Shown one piece after another: positions 31,281-57,080 of a DNA stretch of 64,000 nucleotides. Position 1 is the first letter of the stretch, and each line of letters opens with the position of its first letter. The stretch spans positions 1,736,001 to 1,800,000 of the forward strand of contig CAJSYZ010000005.1 of NCBI GenBank assembly GCA_910574455.1, read 5' to 3'. The notes beneath the pieces are model-generated. The model did not search any database, had not been told where the DNA came from, and saw only the letters and a list, made by a program, of their open reading frames with translations. A program made the translations under genes and the position numbers. The stretch is from Trichaptum fuscoviolaceum. Its lineage: Eukaryota; Basidiomycota; Agaricomycetes; Hymenochaetales; Trichaptaceae.

Positions 31281-31296
31281 CTTTATGGTAGGAAGA

Positions 31297-31305
31297 AGAA
31301 AAGTT
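31297..31305 (+). repeat. 9-bp target-site duplication, left copy
   Basis: AGAAAAGTT immediately before the element. An identical copy follows the element at 53435-53443. Nine bases is the usual duplication for Mutator-superfamily elements. Confidence 0.85.
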
Positions 31306-32209
31306 GCAAAATGGGAGTCTGCCCTAAATGTAATGAAGTCAACCCACCATAAATGGGGTCAACCGTGAGAAATGAAGACAACCTGTATTTAATGTACTTC
31401 AACCTTTCTGAAATGTAAGTCAACAATTTCAGAATTCGAAGTCATCATTTGTAAGATTTCGGAATCAGCCTATTTTGAAATGGAAGTCAACATTTGTCAG
31501 AATTCGGAATCAACTTAATTAGAATTGTAAGTCAGCCTTTCATAATATGCAAGTCAAACCGGGGTATGTATTCGACATCAACCTCGAGAAGAAATATAGG
31601 ATGGCCTAAAAGAAATGGAAGACAACCAAGCAAAGTAATATAAGACACCATGAAAGTAATTGAAACCAGCCTCGTAAAGTAATCCAAGTCAACCTGCATG
31701 AAATATAAGGCAACCCAAAAGTATTCGAAGTTAGCCTCGAAAAGTAATGCAAGTCAGCCTGCAATAATTTCAAGTCACCCAGAAAGTATTCGAAGTCCGC
31801 CCACCAAAGTAATGCAAGGCAACCTGCAAGTATGCGAAGTCACCCAGAAAGTATTTGAAGTCAGCCTCGAAAAGTAATGCAAGTCAACCTGCAATAATTT
31901 CAAGTCACCCAGAAAGTATTCGAAGTCCGCCCACCAAAGTAATGCAAGGCAACCTGCAAGTATGCGAAGTCACCCAGAAAGTATTTTGAAGTCAGCCTCG
32001 AAAAGTAATGCAAGTCAACCTGAAAGTATAGCAAGCCACCCAGATGGTATTCGAAGTCAGCCCAGGCAAGTAATGTAACTCAACCTACAAGAAATATAAG
32101 TTACCCTGAAAGTATTCGAAGTCAACCTTACCAGAACAGCCAAGACAGAATATGCTATAACTCTCCAATTACTGGTCCGTTCAGTACGAAACTACCACGA
32201 ATCGAAAGC
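31306..32209 (+). repeat. Left inverted arm: array of ~30-bp subterminal repeats
   Basis: Roughly thirty diverged copies of a unit like AAAGTAATGCAAGTCAACCT, with the core AAGTCAACC recurring about every 30 bp. A higher-order unit of about 130 bp (four small units) is repeated near 31740, 31870 and 32001. The innermost ~80 bp (to 32209) is not repetitive and is also present inverted at the other end. Such arrays are candidate transposase-binding sites. Confidence 0.85.
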
Positions 32210-32359
32210 TTATTTAAAGGAGATTTGACACAGCTCTTGCAAATTGAGCAAGGTGAATCAGTCATTTGGTAGATTTGATTTTTGTCATTTCTGTGTCTTA
32301 TAGCCCTCTTATACAGTCACTGTCCGCTGCTGCTGCAATCATGAGAGGGGAACCAATAG

Positions 32360-32835
32360 AAGGTGAAAGCAAGGTCTTGATATTGGTTTGTATTGAAGTC
32401 TTTGGTACTCTCAGGTGCTGATCATCTCGTTCGGGCAATTCAGAAATGCAAGGCAGGCGAATTTAATCTCATGGTCTCTACTTCTATAGGCAATGAAGGT
32501 CTGGTTATCGGTGAAATCAATGAAATTATTTGCTTCCTCTTGCCGAACTGCGCGAGGACCAGAACAAGGCCTTAATTTGCTTTGAGAAGGGAGGCCCAAG
32601 GTGAAAGCAAGGTCTTGATATTGGTTTGTATTGAAGTCTTTGGTACTCTCAGGTGCTGATCATCTCGTTCGGGCAATTCAGAAATGCAAGGCAGGCGAAT
32701 TTAATCTCATGGTCTCTACTTCTATAGGCAATGAAGGTCTGGTTATCGGTGAAATCAATGAAATTATTTGCTTCCTCTTGCCGAACTGCGCGAGGACCAG
32801 AACAAGGCCTTAATTTGCTTTGAGAAGGGAGGCCC
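32360..32835 (+). repeat. Perfect 238-bp tandem duplication
   Basis: Two head-to-tail copies (32360-32597 and 32598-32835) that appear identical by eye. Each carries the same helicase-like coding fragment. The lack of divergence suggests a recent duplication inside the element. Confidence 0.9.
32393..32813 (+). pseudogene. Captured MPH1/FANCM-type helicase fragment, in two copies
   Basis: Each 238-bp copy encodes KAGEFNLMVSTSIGNEGL followed by VIGEINEIICF. This resembles helicase motif V of the Mph1/FANCM/Hef family, where the usual form is a T-S-I-G-E-E-G-L-D-I-G-E stretch. Here E is N and D is V, and the frame leaves the family sequence after ICF, before motif VI. Only about 35-40 residues match. 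It is a gene fragment of the kind MULEs pick up, not a working helicase. The homology is recognised by eye; a database search against MPH1 would settle it. Confidence 0.6.
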
Positions 32836-34216
32836 GGAAACCATTGGAAGAAGAATATCTTGATTTCAATGGTGAGTGAGACGAACATATAACACTAGAT
32901 AATTTATAGATGTGTAGTTCCCAAAGTTCTAAGAGCCTTGGACAGGTAAAAGATGACAAATGTCCAGTTTTGTCGTTGCGAGCCTCGACCAGCGAGAACA
33001 CAGTTGACTTGCCTTCATCCAGCCTTACCCAGAATACCACGTAGGTGTCACACCATAGGCACGACAGCCTGAGAAGGTGTTCCTGCGCTCCCGCTCGCTC
33101 CTGTCCGTCGTCGATAATCTAAAGAGAAAGGCTTCCTCGAAGGATGCAAGAGTGGAAAATTGGGCTGGCAGGTTATTGTGGGAGAAGCCACCCTGGAGCT
33201 CGCTGAAAAGGTCCTTGCTCTAGAGCGTCTTGGGGTTGCCGAGGGACCAACGAGTCAAGCCCATGACCGAAGGGAGACGCAGCCTCTGACAAGGAGAAAC
33301 CTTGACAAACCCACAAGGAAAACTAAACCGACCGAAGGTCTCCATACATAGTGTCACCCATGTAAATAGACATTCAATTGCAATACTCACCTTACTTCTG
33401 TTACACACCAATGAGCTTTGATATAGCAGGTGGCTCTGCTTGGTAGCGTCCGCAAGGCCTCGAGCAGTAAGTTGGGTGGCGCGAATAAGGCCTCGTCCGA
33501 ATGGCTTTGTTGGAGCGGGTAGCGTCCGCTAGGCATTGATAAATGGGTCTTCATCTTGCGTTCTTATGAATATTCGCGTCTTCATTGTGCGTCGCCGCTG
33601 TCTTGAGGCGCGGAGTCGTCTTTGTTGTTGTGGTCGATGGTGAAGAAATGCGACGCAGTTTCACGCGTGAAGTACACGAGCTCCCGCTTGTCACGAGTCG
33701 TGGTAGTTCTTCGAAGTCCTTCCAATGACATCTGTCATCAGGTATTTCACAAGGAACAAAGGAAGCTCCGTATCTGAATAGAAATCTGCCATGGTCATCT
33801 TGACATGAATATCATGAAAGGAAATATAAGAATTGAATGCAGTTACCAGGTTATACCATTGTCCATCAGATAGGTTACCTAGGTCCAATATATGTAAGCC
33901 ACTGGAACATGCAGATAGAAATGAATACCACATACTGCGTTGTAGAAGTTTTTTTTTTTAAAGTCCATTAGATGACTTAGACAAATCAAGCTCGTGAACT
34001 GAGTAAGCCGCTACATGTAATACGCAAACGTAAGCATCCCACAAGGGTCATATGCTGTATAGTATTATCTTTTCAGTTCGCACGCACCACGTGATCATCG
34101 GATGTACGGAAGCTTGCTTACCGGAGCCGAGTAGCATCATTTGCTTCCGTCTCCGTCGGCAATTTACGGCCTGCTGTTTTCACCTCTCTTTCCCCATCCC
34201 CAATTGTCGTCTCACC
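32836..34216. other. Left interior of the element without a clear gene
   Basis: Contains short frames of unknown origin, including an 80-residue one at 33691-33933 (-) with GLHILDLGNLSDGQWYNLV, which looks protein-like but is not recognised, and a near-repeat of GGTAGCGTCCGC at about 33446 and 33516. This segment may hold further captured fragments and the promoter of the small gene at 34217. Confidence 0.4.
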
Positions 34217-34668
34217 ATGCGTTACGGCAAACTTCCCTGCAGATTGAGACGGTACGTGCTACGTACAACCACTGATTTTCATTAGAAAGATTCTGATTCG
34301 TAAATATTGCATACACTTACAGGCTTTTTGCGAGACTGCTCGACCGCGTGGTCGCGCTTTTTCGAGCTCGTTTCCCAGAGGATTGGGCCGGGAAGATGCT
34401 CGTTGAGGGTATGTCTTCTCCGTCCATAAACACATAATTGGAGTCTAATATCTTGATAGAACGACCGCGCAATCCTCACGTCGTTGCTGAGCGATTGGCC
34501 AGCATAACAATGGTACTCGAGGTAGTCATTGCCGAGTACACCGTCATTGCGGTACGGGAAGTCACGACGGATGGGCAGGAGGAGAGGGAATGGGAGGCCA
34601 AGAGGGAGGCGGAGAAGCTTGCAAGTGTCTGTGCGGAGTTTTTGGCAAAGATTGATCACCCCCGTTAG
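34217..34668 (+). CDS. Small basic/helical protein of the element, unknown function
   Basis: Three exons: 34217-34251, a second from 34323 (after gtacgt...ttacag), and a third after an intron ending ...cttgatag near 34459. The spliced product is about 110 aa. It has an Arg-rich N-terminus (KLPCRLRRLFARLLDR), then a long amphipathic helix region (ERLASITMVLEVVIAEYTVI), then a Glu/Lys-rich helix (REWEAKREAEKLASVCAEFL). No family is recognised. It runs opposite to the large genes and faces them. It could be a DNA-end or transposase cofactor, but that is a guess. Confidence 0.55.
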
Positions 34669-34880
34669 TGGGTAGTAGATGGACTATTCCACTCAGACCT
34701 TTTTAAATTGTGTAAATAGTATACCCTCACATTCCCTACAGAAACTCTCACCTTTTACATTGTATCATATGTGAAAAATGAACACTTCCTCCAAGGACTG
34801 AGTGAAAAGGAATGAAATTAGACTTAAGCACTCATCACAATGAATTACGGATACAAGTAGATCATTAGGAGTGTCGGCTA

Positions 34881-37800
34881 CTAGTATCTTTTCCTTCCTC
34901 TCTTTGCAATACTCACCATAGACCCTGCCTTCTGGATTATCCGGAAAAGTAAACCCAAGCGTACACTTTCTGAGTCGGCCTCAATGAGCTTGATGAGACT
35001 TTTGCTTGGTTGAGCCTGCAGAGACCCGAAAAACACCAAGCAAATCATGAATATGCACGAGAATGCACCGCAATCATGTCCGTTTGTCTGACGAGGAACC
35101 TTGATTGCCTCGTTAGCATGGGATAGTTGCGTAGGGTAGAGTTTCAGCTTACATTGTCTTGCATCTTCGTTTTCCATTTTGAGCGTACAAACTTCTGCTT
35201 TTCTTCTCTCGACTTGCGTTCCAACCAGGAAATAATTTGCTATAGAACCGGGAAGTCTTTCATTCAGTGTGTAATGCAATGGAATATGTGCCACCCACGT
35301 TAAGATACGTGGAGTATGTCTTGTCAGACGCTTTTGCTGATGAAAGACTATCGTAAACCTCAATAGTTGTTTTTTCGAAAACGATACAAGCGACAATCCA
35401 GTGGTCATTATTGACATGCATTGGGAGAACGAGAGATGACATGTCAGATAATGAAATCTATCGATTTGTCAAATGTACACAGTTCATAAGTCTCTTCATA
35501 TTAAAGTGCAACTCACCATTAGCAGAGGATCCTTCTTAAGTCGTTGATCAGCCTTCCCTTTGATAGAGTTGAGAAAGAAGGTATGTGCAATAAAAACATC
35601 CTTGGGGCGCTTCGTCCTACAAGATGGAGGTTAATCACAAATGCAGTGCCAAGGTGTTGGTCCACGTACGATTTTTGAATTGCGTGAACCACTGCATTTA
35701 CTAGATTGTCGTCAAACCAACTGGGTGGCTGGAGGCGCTCCAGATGCTCTCTCTCTATCACCGCCATCCCAGCTTCCAGACTATGTCCTTTGCGGAACAA
35801 TTCCAGGTCCTGCTTGTACTGTATATCCATTAGCTCGTGATCCTGGACATTAAAGGGCAGGAAGCACTCACCTCAGCCTTTAATAAAGTCCTCTCCTGGC
35901 GTGCAGATACCATGGTCCATTGCAACGACATTATCACCTCCTGTAACGTTTTATCCTCTTCGTCTTGGACAGGAGTTGCGCGGTCATCACTCGAACACAT
36001 TGCTGATTCCTCTGGGACAGGAGTTAACTCACTCGCCCCACTACTGGGTATGTCATCGACATCCATCGCGTCTGGCACCGAAGACTCTCCATTTTGAGCA
36101 ACAACCCCTGCGGCAGGAACTTCCGGAAGACTTGGCGTAGCAACATCGTCTGTAGCTAGTGGTGAACCATTCCGATCGACATTGTTAGGAGCAGTTCCAA
36201 TTTCGTCATCTCCTTCGCCTTCGCCTTCGTCTCCTTCGCCTTCATCTGCATCTGCAACGTTGTCTTTGTCTTTGTCCTGTTCTTCGTCTATCTCCATCGC
36301 TACTGGTTGAACATTAAGATCCACTCCATCTTGCTTATTCTGACCGGTTCCTGTCTTATCATCTTCTTGTCCATCTTCAGGCATAGCTGTCGCATGATCT
36401 GAATGAAGATCTGATGGAACACGGTTAGATCAGATCATTAACTATATTATGGATCCATGTCAGTGCTTACCTTCGAGGCGAGTATCATTAGGATGCATTG
36501 AAGGATCCATATCCTCTTTGGACTGGATGCAATCTATATAATCGGGCCGAATAGCAACCTAACATGCATGAAATGAGAACAATCCAATGTCTCAATGATT
36601 TCACTTACGCATTCTTTTGCACCTAGCTTATTTGACCATTCATTCTTCATGCCTTTCCCCTTGAACTGAGACAGGAACGCCTCTAAAGTTTGTCGATCTA
36701 GGCCTTCTGTCTTACTGGAACGGAAGGACGATGCGGCAGAGATCCAGAATTCCTTGATGCCAGTAGGTCCTAACTCGACCAGTTTTCTCTTCACGGAATT
36801 CGCTTCCACATTGATGGAGAACGCTAACAGCAGGGCAATCGTGGCTGCCCAGAACCCGCAGGAACTACCATCAACTTGTACACCCAATGGCACATATGGG
36901 TAGTTCATCAGAGGTCCATCCAAAGGCTAATTAACAGGGTGAGGTGAATCATGAGCAATTACTGATCATTTATTGACTATTGACTACTTACCTTTTCCAG
37001 TCGCGCACCATTGACAGTGTGGAAGAAACTAGTGATGAGCTTTGGTCCACGTGCGTTGGTGCGGTTGGCGACATTCATTGAATCAAATGCCTTGAATTGC
37101 TGTTTCCTATAGTCGTGAAAGTAGATAATCCAATGGGTGCGTTGCTGATCGTGATGAAAAACGACCGCCTTCTCGAGGGTCTGGGCTGTACTAAGGTTCC
37201 AACAATGAGCCAGAGCACCATCTCGAGGAAATGCATCCTGTATAGAACATCAGCTTGAGATATCCATACCCAACAACGTCTTTGTACTCACCGAACCATC
37301 GGGCTTTATCGGAAATTCGTCATTTACCACCGACCAATCCGCCGCGTCGATCTGCGTGGCAAATGATGAGTGGTTATGGGGAACAAAAATTGTACGAAGT
37401 TGGCATGTTCTCGACAGGGCGTGAAGTATAGGATGTAAACAGTGGTCTAATTCGTCTTCGCGCATTAAGTAATTTGGGTTGGACCATAATTCCCGGTACC
37501 GGCCTTGTGATATGGCCAAATCCTCATTGTCGAATGCTCCCTGTGTGACGACGACATCGTTGTTGATTGTCTCCAATGTCTAAACAGAAAGATGTTAGTT
37601 AATTGACACATGAACACAACACGGCATTTTGCCCTTCGTACCTCTCTTTTGTCACTGTCTTGCTTGACTTTGGCAAACTCTGCAATGAGCTTCTTTGCTT
37701 CTTTCCTATCCTCGGGGTTCATTGCCGGTAGTAGACTACCCTTTGGTTTGGGTCGAGGTCCGGGCTTCTGATTGAAGACGACTTTATCCTTTCCTTTTCG

Positions 37801-38940
37801 CTTCTTGGAGTGCATAGGTTTCTTCGAATTTCCACAGTCCACATCGTCTAAGAGATCTTTGTCGCTGGCTTTCTTTCGGTTGTGCAAGGGAGTAGTCGCT
37901 GCGGTCGTCCGGCACTCGGTTTCACTACATATCACCCGCGTCAGTCAACGAAAGCGTGCCTTATATGGATCATCTGCGACATACCTCTCTGGAATCCATT
38001 TTCATCCTCTCTGGCTTCCTTCTGGCGATCTGAATCAACCTCTCCTTCCTTGCCTGCCCGGTCTGGATCCTCCACACCTTTCAGGTTCGTTCCGCCTGTA
38101 ACATATCAATCCATGAATAGGTGTAACACTGCACAACTACATTCCAGCTTACCTTTGGGTTCGACAAGTGCCTTGAAATGATCTACCTGAGAGATGTCTA
38201 CGTCTCTCCCAGTGTCATCATTATCCTCACTCTCGACTTCCGTCTCTTTATCCTTAAGCTTTTTTCTCTCCTCCGGTCCCAGTATCGTAGGAAATGGCCC
38301 AGTCTTTTCCATCAAGAATGCCTCAATGCTTTCAGTGTCCTTGTCTATGTTCGAATCTTTCGGGGGTTGGCCTTTCCACCTCATATTCTCTGTTCCGATT
38401 ATCGTCTTCCCTTTCTTCCCTTTCTTCCTTTTCTTCCCTTTCTTCCCTTCCGAGTCTTCCGATGATTGTACGTCATCCGACTCGTTTTCGTTCTCTGGCA
38501 CAACATAAGCATCGCGTTGCTGCCTGCGTTTCGGTCTCGCCGTTTCAGCTTCTAATGCGACAAATCTAATCAGTATGTACGCCACTAGTACGGATATACG
38601 ACGACTTACTAAGGTAACTCTCCACAGGACCGTATTTTTCTAGACAATCCTTCGCATATATATGCTCACATCTTTTTCCCGTCTGTGTGAATCTCGCGCA
38701 GGGGCATACGTGCTTTTCATGTTCAAGCTTCAGCCTGAGTGCCTGGCGTCTTTCCTCTTCATCTAAAGACATGTTAGGGAAGTCAAAGGTGTTGCACACA
38801 GAACAATTTTCTCCAGTGTCCTTAGCACTTAAGTTCTCTAACTTGTTTACTACGAAAAATTTGCTTCCGGCATAATCCGACCACCGTTCGGCTCCCTGTT
38901 TCTCGACAACTGGTCACATTTGTTGACTTACGACGTTCAT
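34881..38940 (-). CDS. SWIM zinc finger protein with tandem Ulp1 (C48) protease domains
   Basis: The coding order is SWIM finger, Lys-rich linker, Ulp1 domain A, acidic linker, Ulp1 domain B. SWIM is CPCARFTQTGKRCEHIYA (CxC...CxH). Domain A has THWIIYFHDYR (His), FKAFDSMN (Asp) and VQVDGSSCGFWAA (Gln and Cys), about 37.1-36.8 kb. Domain B has NNDHWIVACIVFE, IEVYDSLSS and RQTNGHDCGAFSC, about 35.4-35.0 kb. Both keep His-Asp-Gln-Cys. The linker between them is rich in Glu/Asp (EGEGDEGEGEGDDE). The product ends KRGRKRY at 34881. Many introns interrupt it. I place a start at ATG 38940 (MNV, then a 36-nt intron). An alternative is fusion to the upstream transposase through a 154-nt intron (38896-39049). 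Ulp1 enzymes remove SUMO; the pair may act on host SUMO or on the transposase. Confidence 0.78.
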
Positions 38941-39030
38941 ATTAATTCACATAGTTAGTCAAGCAGCATATACATCCGATTTTTTGTTAATTAAGTATAA
39001 TATATGCATCCAAAACTTCTTCAACCTTTC

Positions 39031-42028
39031 CTAAGGACTAGCAATCACAATATAATCCCCTGTCTCTTCATCTCGAGTTACAGCTCCAGGAATGCTCCAA
39101 ATACGATAGCCGAGTGCCCTCACTTCTTCCTGTGCTCTATCCGTTGACTTGCCTTTCGGTTCCCAGTGGGCGTAATAGGGGAACCAATCATTAACAAATA
39201 TCAGCACCAGACGATATATACTATTCACACAGGATCAGTAACATTTGACGACTTTTTAGTTAACCACTTACGACTTGTTAGCCCTACTGCGTAGGAAGAC
39301 CTGGTCAAATGTCTTGAAGGCTCGCTCTATATAATTGTTAGTCGAAAGGCCGTCATCGCGATATGTACCTGGTGGTAAGCCCATGTCCGTCCAATAATCT
39401 TTTTGATATGTTACTGATCAGCGTTTCGCACTTAGAAATTACTGCTCTACTCACTTAGCCATTCCTTCGTGAACCAGTTTGCTTCAAAATACGCCATAAC
39501 GTCCGATTGCAGGCTTGTTCCGCCATCCATAATGCGTCTAATTCGGTCTGCGAACTCAGTCTTCTTCGTATTCCAGTCCGACATGTGTGCGCATCGCTGT
39601 AGCTCTCTCAGAGCCCAGAACATCATATTTTTGCGATACTTATTCAGAGTTGGCCGCGTTTGTCGATCAGTTCCTTCATCTCTATCCCAGCGTAGAATTG
39701 CCTGCGACGATGTCATGATCTACAGACAATTCCGTCATGTACTTGCACTTACCTGAATGACATGGAATTGACAGATGCGAATGGTCATGTCCGGCCATAC
39801 TAATGAAGCAAAGGTCATTATTTTGCTAATAAGTGACTGAGACTTGTGGCTTACCTCTCAATATACCATCTCTATTTGCTTTCGATTTATCAATCATGAT
39901 GAACTTCGGCTTGAATTCATTATCCTTCACGATACGTGCAGCCTCTTCCAGCAGCTCCGTCTTCGAGCCAAGGTGTCCTTCGTGTACTGTACTTGTGCCT
40001 GAAAACGATGGCAGACTTTGAGAGAAGAGACGACAAGATTGAGGTCATATTACTTACCATTGCACAAAGCCTCGGCTTCTGCTTTCACGACTTCACATGT
40101 CTCCCTCAAGAACTTTTCAACGGTATCCGTCCGAATATCACTGGACAAGTATACGGTGCCTCCAATAGTATGTCAGTTATTGTATTATTATGGACTACCC
40201 GGATCCCGTACCTGGTACCATGTGTTTTTGCTTGTTTAAAGTCGTCAAGAGTGTCACGGGAGCTCTGTTCTCGTTCTTGTGTCTATAGCTCGAGTCAAGT
40301 CCACATCCGCGCTTGCGCGCATTCAATATAAGCGATTGCGTCGAAAATTTGTCCTTCAGACCGGTCCGAAATTGGCCATCCCCGCTTTCAGTTTCATTCT
40401 CATATCTAGTTAACGGTAAGGCGTGGCTTAAAACATAATCACATGCTGCACGTACGCAAATACTGAGTCCGGGTTGGCTTCGGCAAATACTCCAATGCTC
40501 CTCAAGGGGTCATTATCCATTCGTTCTGCTCTGCGGCATTGTTGAACAATATATTCAACTTCCTTTGCTGTGTGCTGTCGATATCGGGGTGTGAGGGCAT
40601 GCATGTATAATTTGGGAATCACTATGATAGGAAACAGCTTGAAGTCAGATGTATTCCCAATACCAGTACATCACTAACCTTTCTTAATTTGTGAGGTCGT
40701 GTGTCCGTGAAGTGTCACTAATTCTTTTATACCTTGTCGAATGTAATGAGACGGCCTAAGATCGCGTAAGTCTTTCACGTGGCCATGGGTGTGCTGCATG
40801 AATATGTGAGCGTGACCAAGATCGTCCGCATTAATCTCCACCTTTTTTTGGTTTTGAGTTAGCGGTCCAGTGGCTGAAGGACTAGGACTTACATGCATCT
40901 TGACATTGCACTTTCTCCTCGGCCGCTGTCTTTTGTTCCTTTCCCTAGGTAACAACTGGTCTTCTTCATCCATATGCTCTTCTTCGTCCTCTTCGTCGGT
41001 GGAAACCCCTTTACCTATTGTGCATTCATAGTCATCCTCGGCAGGAGTACAATTCTTCGCGCAGCGCAGGACGACTCTGAAGACTACACGATCGTCCTTC
41101 GGATCCACCGGATCCTCTCCTCGTCGCTGAACGAAAAAGGATCTCGCACGGATGTCTTTCGGTCTGTCCATAGGATGACCCACGAAAGAAACATCCACTG
41201 CATTGTTGTCCACCTGATACGTATGAGGGGTGTAATCGTTCTTCTGTTGAGAGTGGATTAGTCCTGAAGATGGATTCGCGTTATCCATGCGATGAATGAA
41301 TCCCTACCTGATTATCGAAGAAGCGGAAGAGATAATTAGTTGTATGATGCCCAATGTATCGCCAACCATCATCGGCATAGTAGTGAATCTCAGGTACTCC
41401 AGACACCTTCTTTGGAGTGTGACTGAGGTCTACATTCAACAACCCGAAGACACCCATCCCACCCGCCTTAATCTTTACCGAACGTCTGGGAGATAAATAA
41501 TATTTTGGCACATTTTTGGTGGGGCGGTGTGGATGTGGTGAAGGCTGAGTAGCGGGTCTGAAGCCTGCCATAGGATCTCCTTTAGGCCCTGGTGTCCTCT
41601 TCGCATTCCGTATCGCATTTTCCTTTCGCTGTTGAGGCTAACATTCATTTCAGGATGTCAATACGTGATTCAGGACGTCAGTTTGAACATGTCTCCTTAC
41701 GGTCTCCTTTATCTTAACATACTTCTGAGCTTTTCTTGCACTAGCCTGTACCGTTGGACTGCTTGGCTCCTTCAAAAATGCCATTTAGCTTCCGACACGA
41801 TTAAACTGCTTGCGTAGAGATGACATACCTCTGTCTCTTTCGATGGATCATGCGCATCTTTATTGTCTATCCTCGGTTTCTTTTACAGATGCATTAGTCT
41901 TAAATGCCGAAGGATGGAGATGAGCATTCTATCACCTTCGGCGGCTGACCTTCGTTATCCGACGACTTCTGCGAGGCCTCCGTGTCTGAATATGTGGCGT
42001 TTTTGTGCGTGTACTTGATGTCTTGCAT
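39031..42028 (-). CDS. MULE-like DDE transposase
   Basis: The start is ATG 42028 (MQDIKYTHKNATYS). A disordered N-terminus is followed by a His/Cys-containing DNA-binding-like region (KCNVKMHV ... HTHGHVKDLRDL ... SHYIRQGIKEL). The catalytic core follows MULE order: first Asp in GLDSSYRHKNENRAPVTLL (about 40.29 kb), second Asp in PKFIMIDKSKANRDGI (about 39.9 kb), the CxxH signature in ICQFHVIQ, and the Glu in STNNYIERAFKTFD (about 39.33 kb). The frame ends GDYIVIASP-stop at 39031. MULE transposases normally continue into a SWIM finger; here the SWIM lies just downstream in the same orientation, about 90 bp past this stop. All three acidic residues are intact. At least ten introns. Confidence 0.82.
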
Positions 42029-42570
42029 TTTCGACTTGTGGGGGTGAATGATGGATTCGACCGACCGGTGGACGGTAAAATTTTACAGCGTGAGATCATT
42101 TAACCGTCTGCTTCAACAAATACAAATACAAGGGACTCAGCCATTTTCCAGTGACACTGACAGGAAATGTCTCCTCTATTACATACCGAACCCCCTTCTC
42201 CAATGAGCAAAAAGAGGGACTCATTATATGCGTTTGCTATACGCGGCAAGCATCGCATCCTCGGAGACTGCGGACTTGTGTTAAATATAGGCGTCTTCTT
42301 ATGCGCCGCTCAAACTCACTAAGTGTGGTTCATGAACGCGTTGACTAGCATACGCTGGCAAGTTAAATCCCATATTTACGAATGATAAAAAGGCAAGTTT
42401 AGTATTACAAAATAATCCAGGTAATTGTACCATATACTGACTATCTTTTTTTTTTAACCCCATCTTTGCGTCAAAGCTTGAAAGGACGTCCGCCCACGTT
42501 CTGATCCGAACGATATAAGGTTCAATGAAATGAAATGACTGGGTACGACTTCCCATGATCTTGAAAGGGA

Positions 42571-43180
42571 ATGGCTGTCCACGTCCTTCACGCCCTCATT
42601 GACTTGTCTTCATCTTTCGCCTCTATCCCTTCACTTACGCCCTTCATCTTCACCATGTTCACCTCTACCCGTTTCGCCAGCCTTCTCGGTTACGACGCAC
42701 GCGTGTGTCCGTTCGAGATTGTCTTCGTTGACAATCTGCTAGGCAATAAGAAGAACAAGGATGTACGGGCGAAGGTGGAGAAGTTAGTGGCCGATGTGGG
42801 GATGAACTTGGGGGTGTTGTACGACGTGATGCCCACGTCAATTGCCGTCGTGTAAGTACTTAACACATTAACAACCGTGACATTAACTCACTCATATGGC
42901 TAGACAATCGTTTCACAAACGAGACCGTCACTTGACCGGTCGGGTCTACGTAGAGGAGGGGTATCTTGGGACTTTTCATATCCCTGATGCAAACAGCTGG
43001 GTGAGCACTCAAACAGTATCGCGAATGATAATGAACTTACCTTGACTATGTTAGCTGGATTCTATGCTGGCCACTACGATGGTGATGCCTGATCAGCCAG
43101 GCGTACCTCTGCGTGTCTTTGCCGACGCGGACGAACTAGCCTTCCGCGAAGAAGGCAATCCTATCATCAGGGTAGTGTGA
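42571..43180 (+). CDS. Small protein of the element, plus strand, unknown function
   Basis: Three exons: ATG 42571 to the donor gtaagt at 42852; an exon after ...atggctag (near 42904) reading QSFHKRDRHLTGRVYVEEGY; and a last exon from about 43052 ending at TGA 43178-43180. The product is about 165 aa. The first part is hydrophobic (LIDLSSSFASIPSLTPFIF), followed by a mixed domain with LGYDARVCPFEIVFVDNLLG. No domain is recognised. An internal ATG at 42655 (MFTSTRFASLLG) is an equally good start. It is divergent from the transposase (ATG 42028) with a 540-bp shared upstream region. Confidence 0.6.
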
Positions 43181-43191
43181 GTCTTTCACCA

Positions 43192-43227
43192 TCGTCATCG
43201 TCATCGTCATCGTCGTCGTCGTCGCAG
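43192..43227 (+). repeat. Short trinucleotide repeat (CATCGT/CGT)
   Basis: Six-base CATCGT runs change to CGT runs just after the stop codon of the small plus-strand gene. Likely untranslated. Confidence 0.8.
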
Positions 43228-44094
43228 CGTCGTCTCTGATATCTCCCTCATATTTTGCTTCATCTGCTTCATTGTCATTATAATATTCTCCATTTTTACC
43301 ATTCATGCAAAAATTCATGCTTTGTCCATATGTAATTATATCACATCCAAAAAGAGATCCGATCTTGTCGGTATCTGCTAACGATCTGTATTCTACTGTA
43401 AGTAATGTACATGTATATAGACAATCTGTGTATCATATAACTATTGTATAGTAAACGTGCTCGATCGTATAACACGCGTTGACTCACATCCCGTAACGAT
43501 ATTCTACATCCATGTCAGTGCTTCGGCAAGAAAACTACAGAAAGGTGTCCTACTCGAATGAAAGACAGTAATTCAATCAGAAAGTTGAAAGAAAGATTAA
43601 TTAGCTTCAAGCAGATCAGGGCAGAAATATCTATCTAGATCTATGACACATGTATATGGCGTACACGCGGATCAAATTGCTTTAAAGGGAATAAGACAAC
43701 TCCATTTGAATTACATGTCGCCTATTACCGTAAAGTCCGAAATCAGCTTTGAATATCACATCTATCCGGAGACCCAGGGTCGAATGAGATCTACTCACCA
43801 TATTATACACATCGTCTGGTCTTTCCGTTCACCGCAACATCAATCGACCCGTAAAGACTCATATCCGTGTTCACACTCGAACCTGTTAAGTGGTTGCAAT
43901 GCCATATCCAATTCTAAAAATTGAGATCGACGCTGTCACTGGTCGTGGATCCTCACAGACTACGATTAACTTTTAACGTTTGGACATCAATCCCATACGA
44001 ATCGGGGACGCGTGATCGAATGGCAATAATGTAACGAACACCGTGATCGCAAAGACGCAATGGGAGCTATTAATGTAATACAGATATGAAAGTC
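43228..44094. other. Element spacer between convergent genes
   Basis: AT-rich and without a supportable gene. It lies between the 3' ends of the small plus-strand gene and the ~920-aa minus-strand gene. A 93-residue open frame at 43643-43924 has no family resemblance. Confidence 0.5.
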
Positions 44095-46890
44095 TCAAGC
44101 GCAATGATCGGTGATAAATCGAGCAGCCAGACTCCGTGCAGCTTTGTAAACCCTCTTTGTCTCCATCTCACATCTCATCGCATCTCTCCATTTCGAAGAG
44201 GATAATGGACCGCATCCCTTCTCCATGATTTCGTTCGTTCTGGAAAGGAACCACTGCTCGCAACGCGGCGTCCAGATGCCAAGGTTTAAACCACTTTCTT
44301 CAAACTTATTGAACGTTGGCCACCACGACTGTTCTGTCGGTGCGACGACTTTCGGGACTGCAAACATTTGTCAAGTACTCCATATTTGTGATCGCAAGAC
44401 GTAGAAGTTCTTACCTTTGAAGCTGTATAATCCAACAAACGTTGCCAATTCCTCAAGACTGACATCGTCGTCGAAGTACTCGCGTTTTTGACCATCGAGC
44501 ATTATAGATACACGAATGCATTTCCCGTCTGCATTCCACGTAGGACCGCTAATCACATCGTATTCGTCCACCAATCCTTCCGCCAATCTGGATATTATAC
44601 CGCCCCGTTTCACCACGGCACGAGCGATTCTCTTGTCCTGTAAGAGCTTCATTTTGACAGACTCATAGGCAATGTAGTCTGTCAGGTCAAGGACATGTCC
44701 TATTGGCCTAACGCCCAACCCAATCCGATTTCCAGTGAATACCTCAGATTTCCGTAGTGATCGCCCTTTAGAGTCGCAAGTGGAGTCTGGCAGGGGTCGA
44801 AGGGTATAGAACGCCGTTTTCGTGTCGATGAGGTCTCGGATGATCTCCATCAATGACAATGGCCTTGAGCGTATGCATTGTGCAGCAGTGCAGGGGTCTT
44901 TCACCGCCAGAACCCAATCATTCCCAATGTCTTCATTCCGATGACGTATAATGTATAAAGTTGTCTCCATATGGACGGCCTGGTGGACTACAACCGTTGA
45001 AGTTTGGTTACCCAGGAAAGATGGATTTTCCGGATACAAGTCGCATAGGGCACTCGGAACCTGATCGATGTCGATGTTTGGATGACCCACGGCATCTAAG
45101 TACATGACGTACTGGATGAAGCTTGCTTCCGCGCCGTCTAACATTGTGTACACAGGGGTATCGAACCCGTCGCCTATAACCCGAAGAGCCTTTTGCAGCT
45201 TTATCGGCGGCTTCTCCATTGACTCATACTTTGAACCGTTGACGCACGCGTACCCGAATCGAAGGCTTATAAGGTCGAAGGCTTCTAACACGACCCCTCC
45301 GCTGTCTCGCCTTTTTTGACCCGCAAGGTCCTCTGGTTTGAACGAGTTAGTCATCAGGTCCAGCTCAGCAGTCTCTGCGTCAATTGCAGAACCGCTCAGC
45401 CAACCTCCTAAAACGTCCTCATCATGCATTTCGTATTCCGAGGTGGTAACGTCGAAATCGTCTTCAACATCGAATGTAATGGCGGACGGGTCAAGTTCGT
45501 GACACAATTCCCATACATTCTCGACACAATTATACCATCGCTGTGTGTCTGCGAACATGCTCCAAGCCTGTTCTACGTTCGCTCGATTCACACGAGCGCG
45601 AACAGGTCGTTGATTCTCATCTCTGTCCCATTCGTATACGAAGGCACCGCGTGTTCCAGGACACTGAAAAGACTTTGCGGCTTCCTGACGTTGCATCCAC
45701 TTCGTACGTTTGAGTTGATCCGCATTCGCTAGTGCCTCAGCAATTAGGACTTCTTTCTTCTTTATCCATGCGTGCACGTCTTCGTGAATACATGTAGTCG
45801 AGTCCTTTGTCGTCTCCGCGAATCGGACTTGTTTGGAAGTGTTCGCGCAAGACTGATCCGTAGTCACTGCAGGCGGTAGCGTAGTGGCCGGTTTTGGTGG
45901 CGTAGCCGGTTTCGGTGTAATCCAGACTTGCGCTTCGCTTGACTCCTTCTGAGAAGGCCCGAAGGTTTTAGCCAAATCGAGGGTCCAGGTGGAAGGGCAG
46001 GTATCGTAAGGTCCTTTTCCCCATATGATCCAGACTGGGACATTGGAGACAATGAGGGCAAGTAATTTTGAACTATAGTACCAATCATTCGGCTTTCTCA
46101 GCACTAATCCGGCTCTTCGAATTCGAAAATCACATATGGCGGACATGCGAAGCTCCCACAACCATGCAGGATGGATTTTGCACTTGTATTGCAACGTTTC
46201 CACCCAGGACTTGTCCAGCATTACGTCGAGATCCACCCCAGGTGTATAGAGTGACCAGAACGTCAGGAGTCTGTGAAGAATTGCAGCCCAGGACGCATGA
46301 GCGATCAGAGCCTGGAACGCATCCCTTGAACGTTGGATAGCCGTCCGAGCAGCGTTACTCGAACTGTATGAGTCCAAATACCCTTGAAGGTACGGGGGAG
46401 GGGGAAATTTGTACTCCAGAGGAACAAGGGGTTCCCCTGAATGTTCCAACAGGCAAAGAGCTACTCCCTTCAATGCTCGCTCCAGGGACTGCCAACGGGA
46501 TGCAACAGTCGGGTCCAGAGAGTAACGACTACCAGTCTGAACAAGAGGGTATTGCTCGATGGTTTGAGATAGGCGCCCAAGGATGGCCCCAGAGTAGTCA
46601 GGCACTGCTGGGGCAGCACATAGATACGGGAATTCCTTAGATTCGTAAGCGGGAAGATGCAGATGGCGAAGCCTAGGTGTAGAATAAGGATCGACTTGCG
46701 ATGGAAACGGACGATCTGTGTTGTAGGCTATAACTAGATCGCCGTCGATCCTCATGACGTGTCGTCTTTCAAGTATGTACTTCTCTTTCGCCACCATAAC
46801 GGATGGCGGTGTCGAAGAACCTGAAGTAATGCTCAAATCAATTAGCAAAACGCCGGTCGCCATCAATAGACAAAGGGACCCACTTTCCAT
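44095..46890 (-). CDS. ~920-aa protein of the element, unknown function
   Basis: One long exon of about 830 codons from ATG 46890 (MESGSLCLLMATGV). A single intron (gtaaga...gtttgcag, about 44366-44422) joins it to a last exon ending ARFITDHCA at 44095. The C-terminal block SWWPTFNKFEESGLNLGIWT, then CEQWFLSR, is rich in Trp. From memory, similar C-termini recur in multicopy agaricomycete hypothetical proteins near transposons; this needs a search. The middle holds Pro/Lys-rich linkers (TPKPATPPKPATT), a Trp-rich segment (EYKFPPPPYLQG...) and a region FDDDVSLEELATFVG. No catalytic motif is recognised. Its unbroken large frame inside the element argues that selection maintains it. Confidence 0.75.
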
Positions 46891-47539
46891 TGAATGCGAG
46901 TAAAGCCTAGAAAGGGGTTGGAAGTCAGGATGTGGTTGAGGATAGGAGAAGTGCCCACGTACTGTAGCAGATAAGAAATCGGACCACTTTTACCCCTCTT
47001 CGCAACCGAATTTAGTCTATACCCAGCTCGCCTCGTGGGTGATAATCAGTAAATGTTATTTATATAGGACACGTACTTGGTCAATATACGAATGAGGATA
47101 TTTAGCACTCTAAATAGAGAAAGAAAACGAAGATGGTAGTCATTTTTCATCGGCAGACTCTATGTACATACATAACTATTCAAAACGTAGATGACACTGG
47201 GGTAGAGTGGTGTCCTAAATGATGAAGATACCACTTTTTTTAAGGAACGTATTCACACATTTCTTTTGATACAAACACTGTCATACGGAAGTCACCATAA
47301 CATGAAAGTGCAGAACAGACCGAAACGATGAATAACGGGGAAACGAAACTGACGAGTAAGACGAACGAGAGACCAGAAGCTCCATTGTGCCGCGACATCA
47401 AGGAAGGTGATTCACGGTGTGCCAGTCCTGGGTATAACACGATAATACCACTTCTGCGCCGACTTTTCATGTATGGGTTGGAGTCCTGAAGGACATACCA
47501 CTGTTCCGTACCGATACTTGCATAGCCGGCATCGAAGAT
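46891..47539. other. Element spacer upstream of the 920-aa gene
   Basis: About 650 bp with no supportable gene. It contains the promoter of the 920-aa gene at its left side and the 3' end of the finger/protease-like gene at its right side. Confidence 0.5.
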
Positions 47540-49439
47540 TCACTGTGCCTGAAGAGTTCTTTGAACTCTTTCCATAAAATCCTTACGCCATGGCAGAATC
47601 AATCCACATTTGATGCAAGAAATGTCCGGAAGGGTGCCATAAGGACGACTGGTTCCAGAACCCCATATGTACGTGCGCCAGCCATCGACACTGAAGAGGT
47701 TGATGTGAGCGTGACTCCCAACATCACTACCAGCAAGATGCTTCTCCAACGCATGGACGAAAGATTTACGGGACATAAAAATCTCATAGAGAGTCTCCGT
47801 CACAAGATGCGTGGCGAGGCTCGGTTGAAACTTTTCCGCAACAAAAGACATGATATTCTTCACAATACCGCTGGAATTGAAGGAAGGTTAGAGGTAAGAA
47901 TATAACTCAGATAGTTAGGCCCTCACCGTGCAGTCAGATCGTGTATGTTTGACATCTGGTGGGGACTCTTAACATAAGACCCACAACAGTTTAACACCAA
48001 CGTGGTCTCACGCTCGAACAGAAAGTTCTCAAGGTCGTGTAAAATCAGCCAATTGAAGAACTGAAAAACGTTAGGAAGGGCCATTCACGAATGGGATCAT
48101 GCTGCTTACTTCATCAAAGTCAGTGGCACCATGGACGGTGTGGTAAATCAGCCCTTCCGGGTTTGTGTGAGAGTTGATGAAGACGAGAACCCTCTTGAAG
48201 CGACGGTAACTGATGTCGGAATCGACTTCCGACAGCACCTTTTCCCGTTTTTCCTCCAGATCGGTGTTTTCATTGTCAAAAGTAATATGCACATAGCGCA
48301 GCTATCAATCAAAATAAAGACGAGTCGGTTGCAACACAAACGGAAAAACTCACATCTTCTGATTTCTGTTGATACGAAGACTTCAATATGTGATAGAAGA
48401 TTCTGCCCATTTCGAGATGCTCCACAGAAGATAGTGAGAGATTAATGATGAGTAAAGGAGAAGTGTTCACTCCTGATCTGTAATCACGAACGGAGCAGGG
48501 ACGGCGAATTTCCCACTACGGAAATTGATCAACAAGACATCTTTATACTGAATTTGCAGAACCCACTGGATATTTGCATGGCGCGTTACCGGGCGTATAC
48601 ACCGTGTTCACATGTTTGTTCCAGCACGAGGGACAGCTGAAGTTCTGCTTTTTCGTCTCCTCGACCATAACACAGTCGGAACACATGGCGAGTGGGCAAC
48701 TGTTTTTGGTACAGGGATAGAGTTCACCGCCATCGTGACACCAGCAGCAATGCTACAGACAGGAGGTTAATAAGTGCTTGGAATATGTCAACCAATACTC
48801 ACATCATCTGTCTTCGTTAATAAAAGAAAAGTAGAATTGACATAAGCCGAAACGTCTTGTACCCTGTGAAACATTCGCTCACCTGTCCGCTATCCATACC
48901 GAAGTCAATCTCCATAGCTGCCGGATCCAGCGTGCTTTGCCTCTCCATATTGAGTTCGGGCTTGGGAGGTAGTGGATGGAATGGTGCGGAGTTTTGCGCC
49001 ACATGGCCGCCATCGCTTCCAGTGGATATTTCTTCAAGAGACAATCAGATGAGAGGACGAAGATAAGAGTTATATGATACACACACCTATGTCATCGGAA
49101 GGCGTAATCAGCATTGCAGGCGCCTTTCCTCCAGTAATCACTGTAAGCACAGAAGGTAAATGGGACGAAAATAAGCCGACACAAAATACGGTAGCTCACA
49201 TGACCTTCGTGGTACATGTCCAGTAATCACTGTAAGCACAGAGGGTAAGTGGGACAAAAATATGCCGACACAAGATACGATAGCTTACATGGCCTTCGTG
49301 GTGCATCCCCACCCACTGACGATCGTGTTCCTCCACCCCTCTTAGCCCCATTGCCACCTCCACGACCTCCGCGACCCCGTCCACCACTTCTTGCGGGGGC
49401 CATTGGAAGAGAAGCTAAGGGAAAGGGCAAGAACGACAT
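47540..49439 (-). CDS. PHD/RING-like finger protein with a CHAT/caspase-like domain
   Basis: A multi-exon gene whose exons all join in frame. The N-terminus is Gly/Arg-rich (RSGGRGRGGRGGGNGAKRGG), like RGG motifs that bind nucleic acid. A doubled LITG segment follows, made by a local 89-bp duplication. Next is a Cys8 finger: CCWCHDGGELYPC, CPLAMCSDC and FSCPSCW, resembling PHD/ADD fingers. The C-terminal alpha/beta region shows VLVFINSHTNPEGLIYHT and, about 50 residues later, TTLVLNCCGSYVKS. The strand-His and strand-Cys spacing resembles the His-Cys dyad of CHAT/caspase-fold proteases. A further CIKCGLILPWR ends the protein near 47540. The start is ATG 49439 or 49403 (MAPARSGG). The finger is fairly clear; the protease reading is inference. 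Confidence 0.68.
49131..49308 (-). repeat. 89-bp tandem duplication carrying a whole intron
   Basis: Two copies (49131-49219 and 49220-49308), about 90% alike by eye. Each holds a few codons and a complete GT-AG intron, so the gene gained a second copy of both. One intron uses GTAAGC and the other GTGAGC. Both end in TGCTTACAG. Confidence 0.85.
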
Positions 49440-49920
49440 GGACGTCAGTACTGGTCATCCTTGCGCCAAGCTCTTCGAGCTAGGCTCCGGATCCAGGTGT
49501 CCATGAAGATGAAGAAGGAAAGGATACAGACTTCTGCTGTATGACAATAATAGTGAGAGATGGCAATAACAAGTAATAGATCGAGATAGCGGAAGCAAAT
49601 TTGCTGTCCGATGTGAAGACACGGAAGCAAAAGTTAAGTTGAACTGTAGGCGAAAATTGCCACGCCGTTGCATGAATTATGTAAGCACGGCGTTCGAGAT
49701 TTTTGCCTAAGTTCCGTTTTTCACTCAAGCTTTCCTTCATCACCACCTCGCCACTAGCATGCACTGCGCGAAGCGCAATGTACAGCCTTCAATGTCTCTT
49801 CATCATTTGTTCCTCGCGTTGGGCATTTCCTTATCACCTTCTTCTTTTCCTTATGAACTCAACTGACACTGTGCGAAGCGCAATGTCCCGTGTTGAGTCT
49901 CATGTTTATCTCGTGCTCTT

Positions 49921-50320
49921 CCCCTTCCTCTGGCTGCGGCCACCCGAACATGTCTGCGGAACGTGTTCTTCCCCTTCCTCTGGCTGCGGCCACCCGAACA
50001 TGTCTGCGGAACGTGTTCTTCCCCTTCCTCTGGCTGCGGCCACCCGAACATGTCTGCGGAACGTGTTCTTCCCCTTCCTCTGGCTGCGGCCACCCGAACA
50101 TGTCTGCGGAACGTGTTCTTCCCCTTCCTCTGGCTGCGGCCACCGAACATGTCTGCGGAACGTGTTCTTCCCCTTCCTCTGGCTGCGGCCTCCCGGACGC
50201 CTCTGCGGAATGCGTCTTTCCCCTCAACATGGCTGCGGCCACCCGGACGCCTCTGCGGAAGGCGTCTTTTCCCTCAACATGGCTGCGGCCACCTCGGACA
50301 CATCTGCGGACAGTGTTCAT
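49921..50320 (+). repeat. 50-bp minisatellite, about eight units
   Basis: Units start at 49921, 49971, 50021 and 50071 and appear identical. The fifth lacks one base, and units 6-8 (to about 50320) diverge. The unit carries CTGGCTGCGGCCACCCGAAC. Because 50 is not a multiple of three, all three frames stay open through the array, so long frames here are not evidence of a gene. Confidence 0.9.
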
Positions 50321-51624
50321 TCCTTGCCTCAGGACTCATCCCCTTTTCTTAAGGTTGAGGCCTCGCAAGTGCGTATGTGGAATGCCCTGTCCACTTCAAG
50401 GGTCTGCTACCACCTTAATGGAACAAGCAGACTACACCCACATCTCCGTCCCCACTGGCCGCGACCACCTTATGGGCCTCTATGGTAAGTGCCATCTTCA
50501 CTCCGACGAACGTACCAGGCTCAGTTCTTATACCAGGACACCATGGGAGTTCGTGACGGGTGAAGGGAGGGACCTTGTGACTGTTTGGATGAAGGAAGTC
50601 TATTCGTGAGTGAATACACGGCTTACAAGTGCGCGGCGAACTCATTAGAAGCTATCACCCCTATCAGCTTTCATTAGATACGCTGCTGTGATTCAGTTAC
50701 TCGGACCATCTAATGCTCCGATGCAAGATAGGCAGCTATTCCAACACACGTTGTGATGCAATATCAAGGGTGGCTCTAATTCAAGTGCTCCGTTTCCAAA
50801 AGGGTAAGTGATCCAACACACATCATGATGTATGTCCGTCAATGATAACCCGTTATAAAGCCGCAATCATGCTACATCTTTGAGTGTGGCAACTATAGGT
50901 CAGATGAAGCTAAGTAGCTCATGTTTATAATTCTTATCATGATACGACGTTGATGTTACTATTTCATAACAGTTCAGTGATTGTAAAATGATGTTTTATA
51001 AGAGGAATGTAGGACAGACCTGTCGCCTTTATGACCATGTGTAATATTATGCTATTTAATGCACTTAGTTCCAACTGTGATGTGTCGACCTCCTCTTTTC
51101 ATCGCCATAGGAACAGTGATATTTAGCAGAGCGAACCAATGATCCTTTTATGGCCCTTGTGGAACATGAGTATAAATATTGCAGTGGTTACCTATGCCCT
51201 AGCATGATTTTCGGCAGAGTTTTAACAAACAAACACAAAACCCGTCGTCCATCTTCTCGCTTTGGGCAAATTTTGTGCATGCGCAACAAATGCCTTCAAC
51301 TTTCTTTCCATTCCAGTGGCACAAATGTCTGCGTAGGATTGCCTGACAATGCTGTTCCGTGTAACTACTCTTACCCTCAATGCTCTCGCCATTCGGGAAA
51401 AGCGGGTTAGAAGGGCTCAGAAAGTCCACTTTTCGCCGCCTCGTTTGAAATCACCACCCTGGAGCTTGATCGCGGACCCAAGCTTTCCGGGGCAATGGTC
51501 ATGAATGACTGCTGTGTTTTTGGATCTTGGCCTGGAACTATTTAAGCTGTCGCAAGATCTGTTACACCTCTTCGTCAAGGACCAGTGCCTCCCTCAGCTT
51601 CTTCCCGCACTATCGTCTGACAGC
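50321..51624. other. Right interior of the element without a clear gene
   Basis: No supportable gene. A protein-like stretch at 50421-50609 (HISVPTGRDHLMGLYG, then SSYTRTPWEFVTGEGRDLVT, split by a possible intron) may be a decayed or captured fragment. The rest is AT-rich. Confidence 0.4.
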
Positions 51625-51969
51625 ATGTCTTCTTTCGAGACCTTTAAACAGCAGTTTCATGGGGATATCATCACCTCTGAGCACCCTGAATACGAGCAAG
51701 CCATATCACAGTGGTCAGCCTGCTCGGTCAAGAGGGCAAGGATCGTTGCCTTCCAGAATGACGAAGACATTGCGACCGCTATCAAGTAAGCCTCTTCCGA
51801 AAATATCCCTCTTGCCGTTCGTGGTAGTGGTCATAGTGCTTCTGGTGCATCATCAGTCGAAGCTGGTGTTGTCATTGACCTATCGCGATACCTAAATGGC
51901 GTACGCATTGATGCTGACAAGAAGCTTGCATACGCCGGCGGAGGAGCATTATGGGCGACTGTCGAAAAG
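51625..51969 (+). pseudogene. Captured N-terminal fragment of an FAD-linked (BBE-like) oxidase
   Basis: Reads MSSFETFKQQFHGDIITS at the start, then, after an in-frame TAA (51787-51789), ASSENIPLAVRGSGHSASG, GVVIDLSRYLNGVRIDADKK and AYAGGGALWATVEK. This is the FAD-binding-4 (PCMH) N-terminal region of berberine-bridge-like oxidases, where R-G-x-G-H holds the flavin. The TAA replaces what is normally Tyr in AIKYA. The family sequence stops after about 115 residues, with no substrate domain. A fragment caught by the element is the simplest reading. Confidence 0.75.
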
Positions 51970-52340
51970 GTTGTTCTCTGAGATACCATACATAGTATGT
52001 ATTAATGCGTTGGAGTAGATTTGTGTTAATTCCTTGTGCAAGCAGAAGACTCAATGTCACTTCTTACAGAAATGCTCAGTGCCAAAGTACTCGACTTAGG
52101 ATGTGTCCCTATAAACGTTGCAGTCGATCATATGAGTAAGTGATTGTACATGTCTTGGTTGAATGCAGATACCATTGTTTGTATCATTTCAGACAGAGAG
52201 AATAAGGCTGCATGAAGTCGCAGCAAGTCTGCCTCGCAATAATTACAGTATACGTGGTCAACAACTCTTCATCCACGCGCAATTGAAATTTTCTCCAAAC
52301 GCCGTTTTGCGTATCCGTTACAATATTCTACTTTCAGAGA

Positions 52341-53434
52341 GCTTTCGAATCGTGGTAGTTTCGTAGAAAACGGATCAGTGGTTGAGGAGATATAGCATAT
52401 TCTGTCCTAGTTGTTCTGTCAAGGTTGACTTCGAATTCTTGCAGGTTGACTTGCATTACTTGCCTCGGTTGGTTCCGAATACTTTCAGGGTGACTTCGAA
52501 TTCTTGCAGGTTGACTTGCATTACTTGCCTCGGTTGGTTCCGAATACTTTCAGGGTGACTTCGCATACTTGCAGGTTGACTTGCATTACTTGCCTGGGCT
52601 GGTTCCGAATACTTTCTGGGTGACTTGCAATTCTTGCAGGCTGACTTGGTTTACTTTACAAGGCTGACTTCGAATACTTTTGGGTTGACTTATATTTCTT
52701 GTAGGCGGACTACTATTACTTAGACAGGTTGATAACAAATACTTTCTGGGTGTGTTGAAATACTCAAAGGTTGACTTACATTACTTTTGGGCTGACCAGT
52801 ATTTCTGAAGGGGTAGTTTGCATTACTCGTCAAGGTTGACTTCAAATACTTTCAGGCTGACTTACATATCTTGAATGCTGACTTGCAATATATGTTTCGG
52901 CTGGTTTCAAATTCTTTTAGGCTGTTTTAGAATTCTTTCAGGCTGACTTATATTTATTGCAGGTGGCCTTGCAATACTCAGACGGGTTGATATTGAATAC
53001 TTTCTGGGTGACTTGTATTTTTGACAGGCTGATTTGTGATACTCTGTTGGGCTGGCTCCCATTACTTACAGGATGAGTTACATTACTACTTGGATCGGTT
53101 GGATTCAAATACTTTTAGTTTGATTTGCTTTACTTTGGCGGGTTGATATGGAAAACTTCGAAATGTTGACTTCCATTTTGAAAACGGCTGACCTCTATTT
53201 TTAAACTGGCTGATATCTAATTCGAAAATGGTTGACTTCTATTTTGAAAAAGGTTGACGCATATTTAAAAAGAGGTTGACTTGGAATACTATTTTGGGTT
53301 GATATCAATTACTTCCTACTAAACAAGAAGGTTGACTTCGATTACTTCCTTGGGTTGACTTCGATTACTTTAAAAGGTTGACCTCAATCCCGAACGGGTG
53401 ACCTCAATATGTTCAGGGCAGACTCCTATTTTCG
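52341..53434 (-). repeat. Right inverted arm: array of ~30-bp subterminal repeats
   Basis: Mirror image of the left arm: on the plus strand the core reads AGGTTGACTT, recurring about every 30 bp, with diverged copies. A ~60-bp higher-order repeat occurs near 52430-52560. The inner ~80 bp (52341-52420) matches the inverted inner end of the left arm (32133-32209). The outer terminus is TCAGGGCAGACTCCTATTTT followed by CG at 53434. Confidence 0.85.
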
Positions 53435-53443
53435 AGAAAAGTT
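53435..53443 (+). repeat. 9-bp target-site duplication, right copy
   Basis: AGAAAAGTT, identical to 31297-31305. Removing the element and one copy restores a 65-nt intron in the GH28 gene. Confidence 0.85.
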
Positions 53444-53483
53444 AGTGTTGTATTGTTGCCGTCGCAAGAAAATGAGGATTTAC

Positions 53484-54389: not shown

Positions 54390-54450
54390 CCTGAGTTAAG
54401 GAACGTAGATCCACAGCTTGAGATTGAGGTAGCAGATGGAAGCCAAGCAT

Positions 54451-57015: not shown

Positions 57016-57080
57016 TCTGACGAGAGCTTAGACCTGGTGTATGTCTTGGGAGACATCAGTACGTGGAGATTGACGAGCAT

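Follow-up and report, generated by a model that had tools for sequence, protein, structure and literature searches.

What kind of element occupies positions 31306 to 53434 of the 64,000-nucleotide stretch of contig CAJSYZ010000005.1 analysed here (the window, meaning the whole of that stretch), and did it reach this site by transposition? A sequence-only reading had proposed a giant Mutator-like element (MULE) with a full set of genes. The analysis presented below leads to a closely related answer: the 22,129-bp interval very probably represents a Mutator-superfamily DNA transposon of giant size that has moved recently, in an agaricomycete-like fungus. MULEs are usually several times smaller.

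Boundaries and genomic copies

The element is bordered by the 9-bp sequence AGAAAAGTT, read directly on the left at 31297–31305 and on the right at 53435–53443. Both flanks are exact, and a 9-bp match at fixed boundaries would arise by chance with a probability of about 4e-6. The ends of the element, GCAAAATGGGAGTCTGCCCT and CGAAAATAGGAGTCTGCCCT, are identical at 19 of their 24 outermost bases once inverted, and behind these terminal motifs lie long inverted arms of tandem repeats, whose complementarity reaches 81% over 342 nt. Both the perfect target-site duplication (TSD) and the matching inverted ends of the sequence-only reading were thus confirmed. In the left arm (31306–32250, plus strand) the terminal motif is followed by a 21–22/65-bp repeat array, and the same repeats recur inverted in the right arm (52330–53434, minus strand). 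The repeat core TCA[AG]CC occurs 15 times in the left arm and its reverse complement not at all; conversely, GG[CT]TGA occurs 26 times in the right arm, again with no reverse complement. By comparison, the 19.4-kb interior contains 10 and 12 cores in the two orientations. Terminal inverted repeats (TIRs) and a TSD of 9 bp, the usual length within the 8–11 bp range of the class, are features of the Mutator superfamily.

The genome searched comprises 59.09 Mb in 12 contigs and represents one strain. Searching with both ends, as had been suggested from the sequence alone, yielded six full copies on four contigs. The 33-bp right-end and 30-bp left-end patterns, with up to three mismatches permitted, each matched the genome six times with no mismatch in any case, and no solitary or mismatched end was found at this threshold. 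The first 1001 bp of the element matched at six places from base 1, and all 30 of its matches fell inside the six copies; no small derivatives with these ends were found in the genome. Each copy has its own perfect 9-bp TSD (AGAAAAGTT, ATTAAAAAT, ATAAAGCTT, ATTTATGAT, AATATGCAA and ATTACTAAT), all six being different, and the pooled duplications are strongly enriched in A and T (46 of 54 bases, P 5e-7).

Copy A, the one in the window, measures 22,129 bp, and the others 22,126 (B), 21,928 (C), 21,905 (D), 21,812 (E) and 30,424 bp (F). Over the interior (32700–52300), divergence from A amounts to 0.005% in B, 0.036% in C, 0.12% in E, 0.68% in D and 0.84% in F. Copies A and B, which share a contig at a distance of about 100 kb, differ by a single substitution and 11 indels, all but one of them single-base. 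From this series we infer several rounds of movement, the most recent of them very recent, and the element may be active at present.

Some copies show additional structure. The left 1.3 kb of A (31306–32597) matches copies C, D and E at just ~97% identity, the interior of C being 99.96% identical; exchange of ends between copies could perhaps explain this. A 238-bp unit in exact tandem duplication (32360–32835) is double in copies A and B and single in C to F by alignment. The extra length of copy F (C1:1054933–1085356) is due to two nested insertions. The first, of ~4.5 kb, has 83-bp inverted ends that are 92% alike and stretches resembling, by eye, fragments of a HAMP histidine-kinase gene, while the second, of ~4.2 kb, contains two identical 777-bp direct repeats, similar to long terminal repeats, and no clear genes.

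The transposase gene

The transposase gene (38153–41288, minus strand) was modelled with 11 exons and 10 predicted introns. It had been described as an open MULE DDE transposase: the assignment to MULEs holds, through homology, the catalytic triad and the fold of a relative, while the openness does not, since the coding region is spliced from 41288 to 38153 in the model and is not a single open frame. Nineteen homologs were found, six of which carry a precomputed PF10551 match; these homologs are the basis for calling the host agaricomycete-like. The DDE core comprises D298 (40296–40294), D394 (39891–39889) and E528 (39327–39325), and this triad aligned in the 15 homologs inspected, the exceptions being P0004, with N at the first D, and gaps. 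A relative of the protein has the Mutator/IS256 transposase fold. A tree of the transposase was made with 15 homologs. Upstream of the core, the N-terminal region is rich in Cys and His (RCAKNC at 41066–41049, KCNVKMHV at 40913–40890 and GHAHIF at 40817–40800); downstream, a SWIM-like CPC..CEH motif is present at 38712–38653, with a Pfam SWIM match below the cutoff (E 0.084).

An initial identification as KDZ/Zisupton was dropped given the evidence for MULE homology. Giant elements of the Starship type have a DUF3435 tyrosine recombinase as their first gene. No such recombinase is reported here, no search aimed at it having been made; the present element is placed outside the Starships because of its 9-bp TSD, its TIRs and its DDE transposase.

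Alternative explanations

Several observations weigh against the assignment. The exon joins of the transposase are predicted, two of them (40442–40399 and 39038–38910) being weak, and with this predicted splice model as the query the protein scores 26.7 bits against PF10551, below the curated cutoff of 27.6. The same profile exceeded its cutoff in three of 14 control genomes, all of them prokaryotes by name. Relative to A, copies B, D, E and F have one or two single-base indels in the modelled transposase exons, for which read error and real damage are indistinguishable. The second of two Ulp1-like domains (36576–37860) lacks a Pfam match, including one to the C48 profile. Finally, constraint was undetectable on two further genes of the element, gene Y (11 nonsynonymous to 7 synonymous changes, P 0.15) and gene X (5:2, P 0.54).

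The indels in four of the six copies also speak for the strongest of the alternatives, that the 22-kb copies are non-autonomous, their transposase having decayed or lost function, and that another MULE family moves them in trans; the large size would then be that of a cargo carrier. In agreement with this, the genome holds seven other places matching the MULE profile, with frames of up to 908 aa, and giant families whose transposase genes are pseudogenised, presumably moved in trans, have been described in Ectocarpus (PMC12477816). Against it, amino-acid changes are underrepresented among the differences in the transposase between copies (14:13, P 0.006), which shows constraint on the protein, and the window copy and C have no indel relative to each other in the modelled exons. 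Movement in trans is unlikely, and an element probably served by its own transposase is preferred.

Still less probable is a composite, in which two separate MULE ends became fused around ordinary genome; the interior would then be host DNA, and one of the ends would have brought the transposase. The mixed origin of the cargo described below (a FAD-oxidase fragment, a dispersed repeat and the X-Y unit) would suit such a history, but the two arms are built from a single repeat array, one inverted relative to the other, neither end pattern was found alone in the genome with up to three mismatches, the transposase is interior, and a single protein of Mycena rosella, P0016, unites transposase homology with SWIM and C48 domains. 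Segmental duplication or an assembly artefact, which the almost identical copies A and B on one contig might suggest, can practically be dismissed, since the six copies, spread over four contigs, all differ in their flanks as well as in their perfect TSDs, and in view of a gene Y protein 100% identical to P0020 of another public collection, whether or not that is independent material.

The Ulp1-type protease region

A Ulp1 (Peptidase_C48) domain is encoded at 34962–35869 on the minus strand, in four modelled exons of which the last join is weak. The spliced model matches PF02902 with an E value of 4.8e-13 (2.5e-4 for a single exon alone), in agreement with the earlier claim of a SUMO-protease gene, and His-Asp-Cys triad motifs can be recognized by eye (NNDHW, VYDS and QTNGHDCGAF). 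An acidic, low-complexity open reading frame (ORF; 35830–36429, minus strand) lies between this domain and the divergent Ulp1-like domain at 36576–37860 (minus strand, four modelled exons), which is nearer the transposase and shows THW, FDS and VDGSSCGFW by eye. Around its cysteine, 41 aa are 44% identical to P0016, a 1388-aa protein in which both the SWIM and the C48 domain exceed the cutoff. The stretch of similarity lies at residues 686–724 of P0016 and the C48 match at residues 898–977; since the latter is outside the former, this second domain is unproven as a protease. A PDB sequence search with it returned one match at chance level (E 0.74).

Genes X and Y and other probable cargo

The full gene set claimed for the element combines two classes of genes. 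The transposase and the Ulp1 gene are probably its own; genes X and Y and the FAD-oxidase fragment are probably cargo.

Gene Y (44374–46815, minus strand) occupies a long open frame of 872 codons, extending from stop to stop over 44374–46989. Similarity to a relative begins near 46797, and one further exon probably extends the gene to about 44104. Its protein has 12 database matches (11 from source lgn and one from ena; 7,996 candidates scored), none of them named. There is no PDB sequence match, and no Pfam match except VRR_NUC in one of the 12 members (E 0.0015), which was not relied on. The structure predicted from 12 sequences reached a mean predicted local distance difference test score (pLDDT) of 49 and was not used for a fold search. 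The genome contains 38 pieces matching gene Y, and those outside the element copies are 22–68% identical.

Gene X (47543–48752, minus strand; five modelled exons) adjoins gene Y. Its protein starts with a Cys-rich segment, CWCHDGG...CPSCW, that appears finger-like by eye, followed by an unclassified part, and has a single short homolog of 275 aa. The label "finger/protease-like" given to this gene found no support in Pfam, which returned no match, and a PHD finger joined to a CHAT/caspase-like domain, likewise read by eye, is not claimed. Near the end of the gene, a one-base difference (47570–47580) sets the window copy apart from the other five, and its frame is consequently shorter (115 versus 158 codons); the difference is either a mutation or an assembly error. 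Exon 5 has 21 matches in the genome, six in the element copies and 15 elsewhere.

A 50-bp minisatellite (49844–50293) lies upstream of gene X, and the sequence 49917–50333 matches, at 68% identity, DNA adjacent to another X-Y locus, at C4:4.93M. At that locus X, Y and the 50-bp minisatellite are arranged in the same order as in the element, and no MULE-transposase-like sequence was found in the 19.8 kb examined. A second dispersed X-Y unit is present at C5:5191193–5206165 and C4:4345258–4360231, with 14,977 bp shared at 99.67% identity and an abrupt left edge. Because of this near-identity and edge, the two loci are either recent duplicates themselves or part of another mobile unit; the sharp left edge was not seen in the C9 stretches examined. 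X and Y are therefore read as captured, and the direction of capture was then presumably into the element. Alternatively, the X-Y unit and the MULE element may descend from a shared ancestor, the MULE part having been lost at the other loci. Capture is the reading retained below.

Further features accompany these X-Y loci. To the right of the shared 14,977 bp, the C5:5.19M and C4:4.35M loci share sequence in opposite orientation, and within that stretch at C5 lies a retrotransposon that is Gypsy-like by eye (C5:5206874–5211783), whose long open frames measure 468 and 1259 codons. At C4:4922346–4923023, some 10 kb away from an X-Y pair, an ORF resembles HTH_23 (E 0.0012) and, at its start, an integrase (rva_4, E 0.004), both under the cutoff; it may belong to the original X-Y carrier unit.

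The sequence at 51206–51970 (plus strand) is 86% identical to C7:1724686–1725457 and encodes the start of a FAD_binding_4 protein (PF01565, E 3.6e-14, reading through one stop). It has the appearance of a typical captured fragment, in keeping with the capture proposed earlier. Two places within C7:1724686–1728620 are 86% and 81% identical to it and likely represent its source family. Elsewhere in the element, 33079–33726 is a dispersed repeat, pieces of which recur at many other places in the genome, at ~74–94% identity among the matches listed (162 in all; 40 of 161 candidates scored). The region 42300–44050, to which no gene is assigned, has DNA matches only in the six element copies of this genome, and ten further ORFs gave no Pfam match.

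The insertion target

The window copy splits a minus-strand host gene of the GH28 (polygalacturonase-like) family, with profile matches on its two sides. The 3' part of this gene (30640–31296), left of the element, covers profile positions 153–213 (PF00295, E 2.9e-17) and 240–310 (E 2.4e-6). The 5' part (53444–54395), on the right, covers positions 101–135 below the cutoff (E 0.028) and was recognized from its ORFs and, by eye, from its likeness to an uninterrupted tandem GH28-like paralog at 55438–57027; of three ORFs of that paralog given to Pfam, one matched GH28 (E 4.5e-7). The paralog has an intron at the corresponding place, judged by eye, and the insertion therefore probably lies within a GH28 intron. 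The flanks of copy B resemble what we take by eye to be a permease, and those of copy D presumably DNA2 and PUF6.

Proposed mechanism

The data presented above have led us to propose a model in which the element-encoded DDE transposase binds the repeat arrays of both arms, with its Cys/His-rich N-terminus as the likely DNA reader. The transposase would excise the element and join it to staggered 9-bp cuts in an AT-rich target, and these cuts would account for the 9-bp duplication gained at each insertion. Copy number could rise through repair of excision sites from the sister copy or through movement during replication. One or both Ulp1-type proteases would travel with the transposase and may strip SUMO from it or from host silencing factors. 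The two-gene segment X-Y would have been captured from a unit dispersed in this genome or in a related one, and a piece of a FAD oxidase gene would have been acquired along the way.

The repeat core includes TTGAC, which also forms the core of the W-box, a plant motif bound by WRKY fingers; Babu et al. reportedly connected WRKY-GCM1 fingers with transposons in 2006. That the N-terminal Cys/His region reads the TTGAC-containing core is a guess. A broader and rather doubtful extension of the model is that this MULE lineage of mushrooms transports whole cargoes of several genes, as a DDE-transposase counterpart of the Starships, that it acquired an entire two-gene unit from a different giant mobile element, and that X, Y and the proteases aid its spread or its evasion of silencing.

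Comparison with known systems

A 22-kb family with six end-to-end copies, some almost identical, and no small derivatives found suggests that moving long multi-gene DNA is within reach of a Mutator-type enzyme, and would offer a natural system for asking whether long end repeat arrays and a Ulp1-type protease enable such movement. It also points to the transfer of cargo between dispersed units, and one of its insertions has split the gene of a cell-wall enzyme. A comparable element, whether a large MULE bearing cargo or a SUMO protease or a giant element in fungi, was not found described in the parts of the open-licence literature covered, and a description elsewhere is possible.

The closest relatives of the transposase are the MULE transposases of Mycena, Flammula, Dendrothele and Piloderma, whose nine best matches are 38–44% identical and share the DDE motifs; their sources name them hypothetical, MULE-domain or SWIM-domain proteins. 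P0018 of Mycena latifolia combines transposase homology with C48, like the present element. C48 (Ulp1) peptidase domains are carried by the Kaonashi (KI) MULEs of plants as well (PMC6117577), so that their presence in MULEs was known already. The same holds for the end structure: Muta1 of Aedes aegypti, an active foldback-type MULE of 3.2 kb with a predicted 504-aa transposase, likewise has a short terminal motif, subterminal tandem repeats inside the TIR and an 8–9-bp TSD (PMC5225508). Unlike the present family, for which no derivatives were found, Muta1 has more than 300 putative ones.

Pack-MULEs resemble the element in holding host gene fragments between MULE ends. Its size lies outside the published ranges compared: more than 95% of the candidate coding MULEs in maize and rice measure 2–10 kb (PMC3903597), no Pack-MULE in Jiang et al. 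2004 is longer than 7 kb as cited in PMC6431247, and the efficiency of DNA transposition is said to fall above ~6 kb of cargo (PMC6431247). MULEs of the Jittery group in red algae have a SWIM finger, comparable to the SWIM-like motif here, and long TIRs (192 and 500 bp) and contain "various inserts, potentially host derived" (PMC6446971). Comparable lengths are reached by the giant KDZ, EnSpm and Sola1 elements of Ectocarpus, already known as giants of other superfamilies, which are generally longer than 10 kb, in some cases longer than 30 kb, and share accessory genes and nested insertions with the present element, from which they differ in the superfamily of their transposases (PMC12477816).

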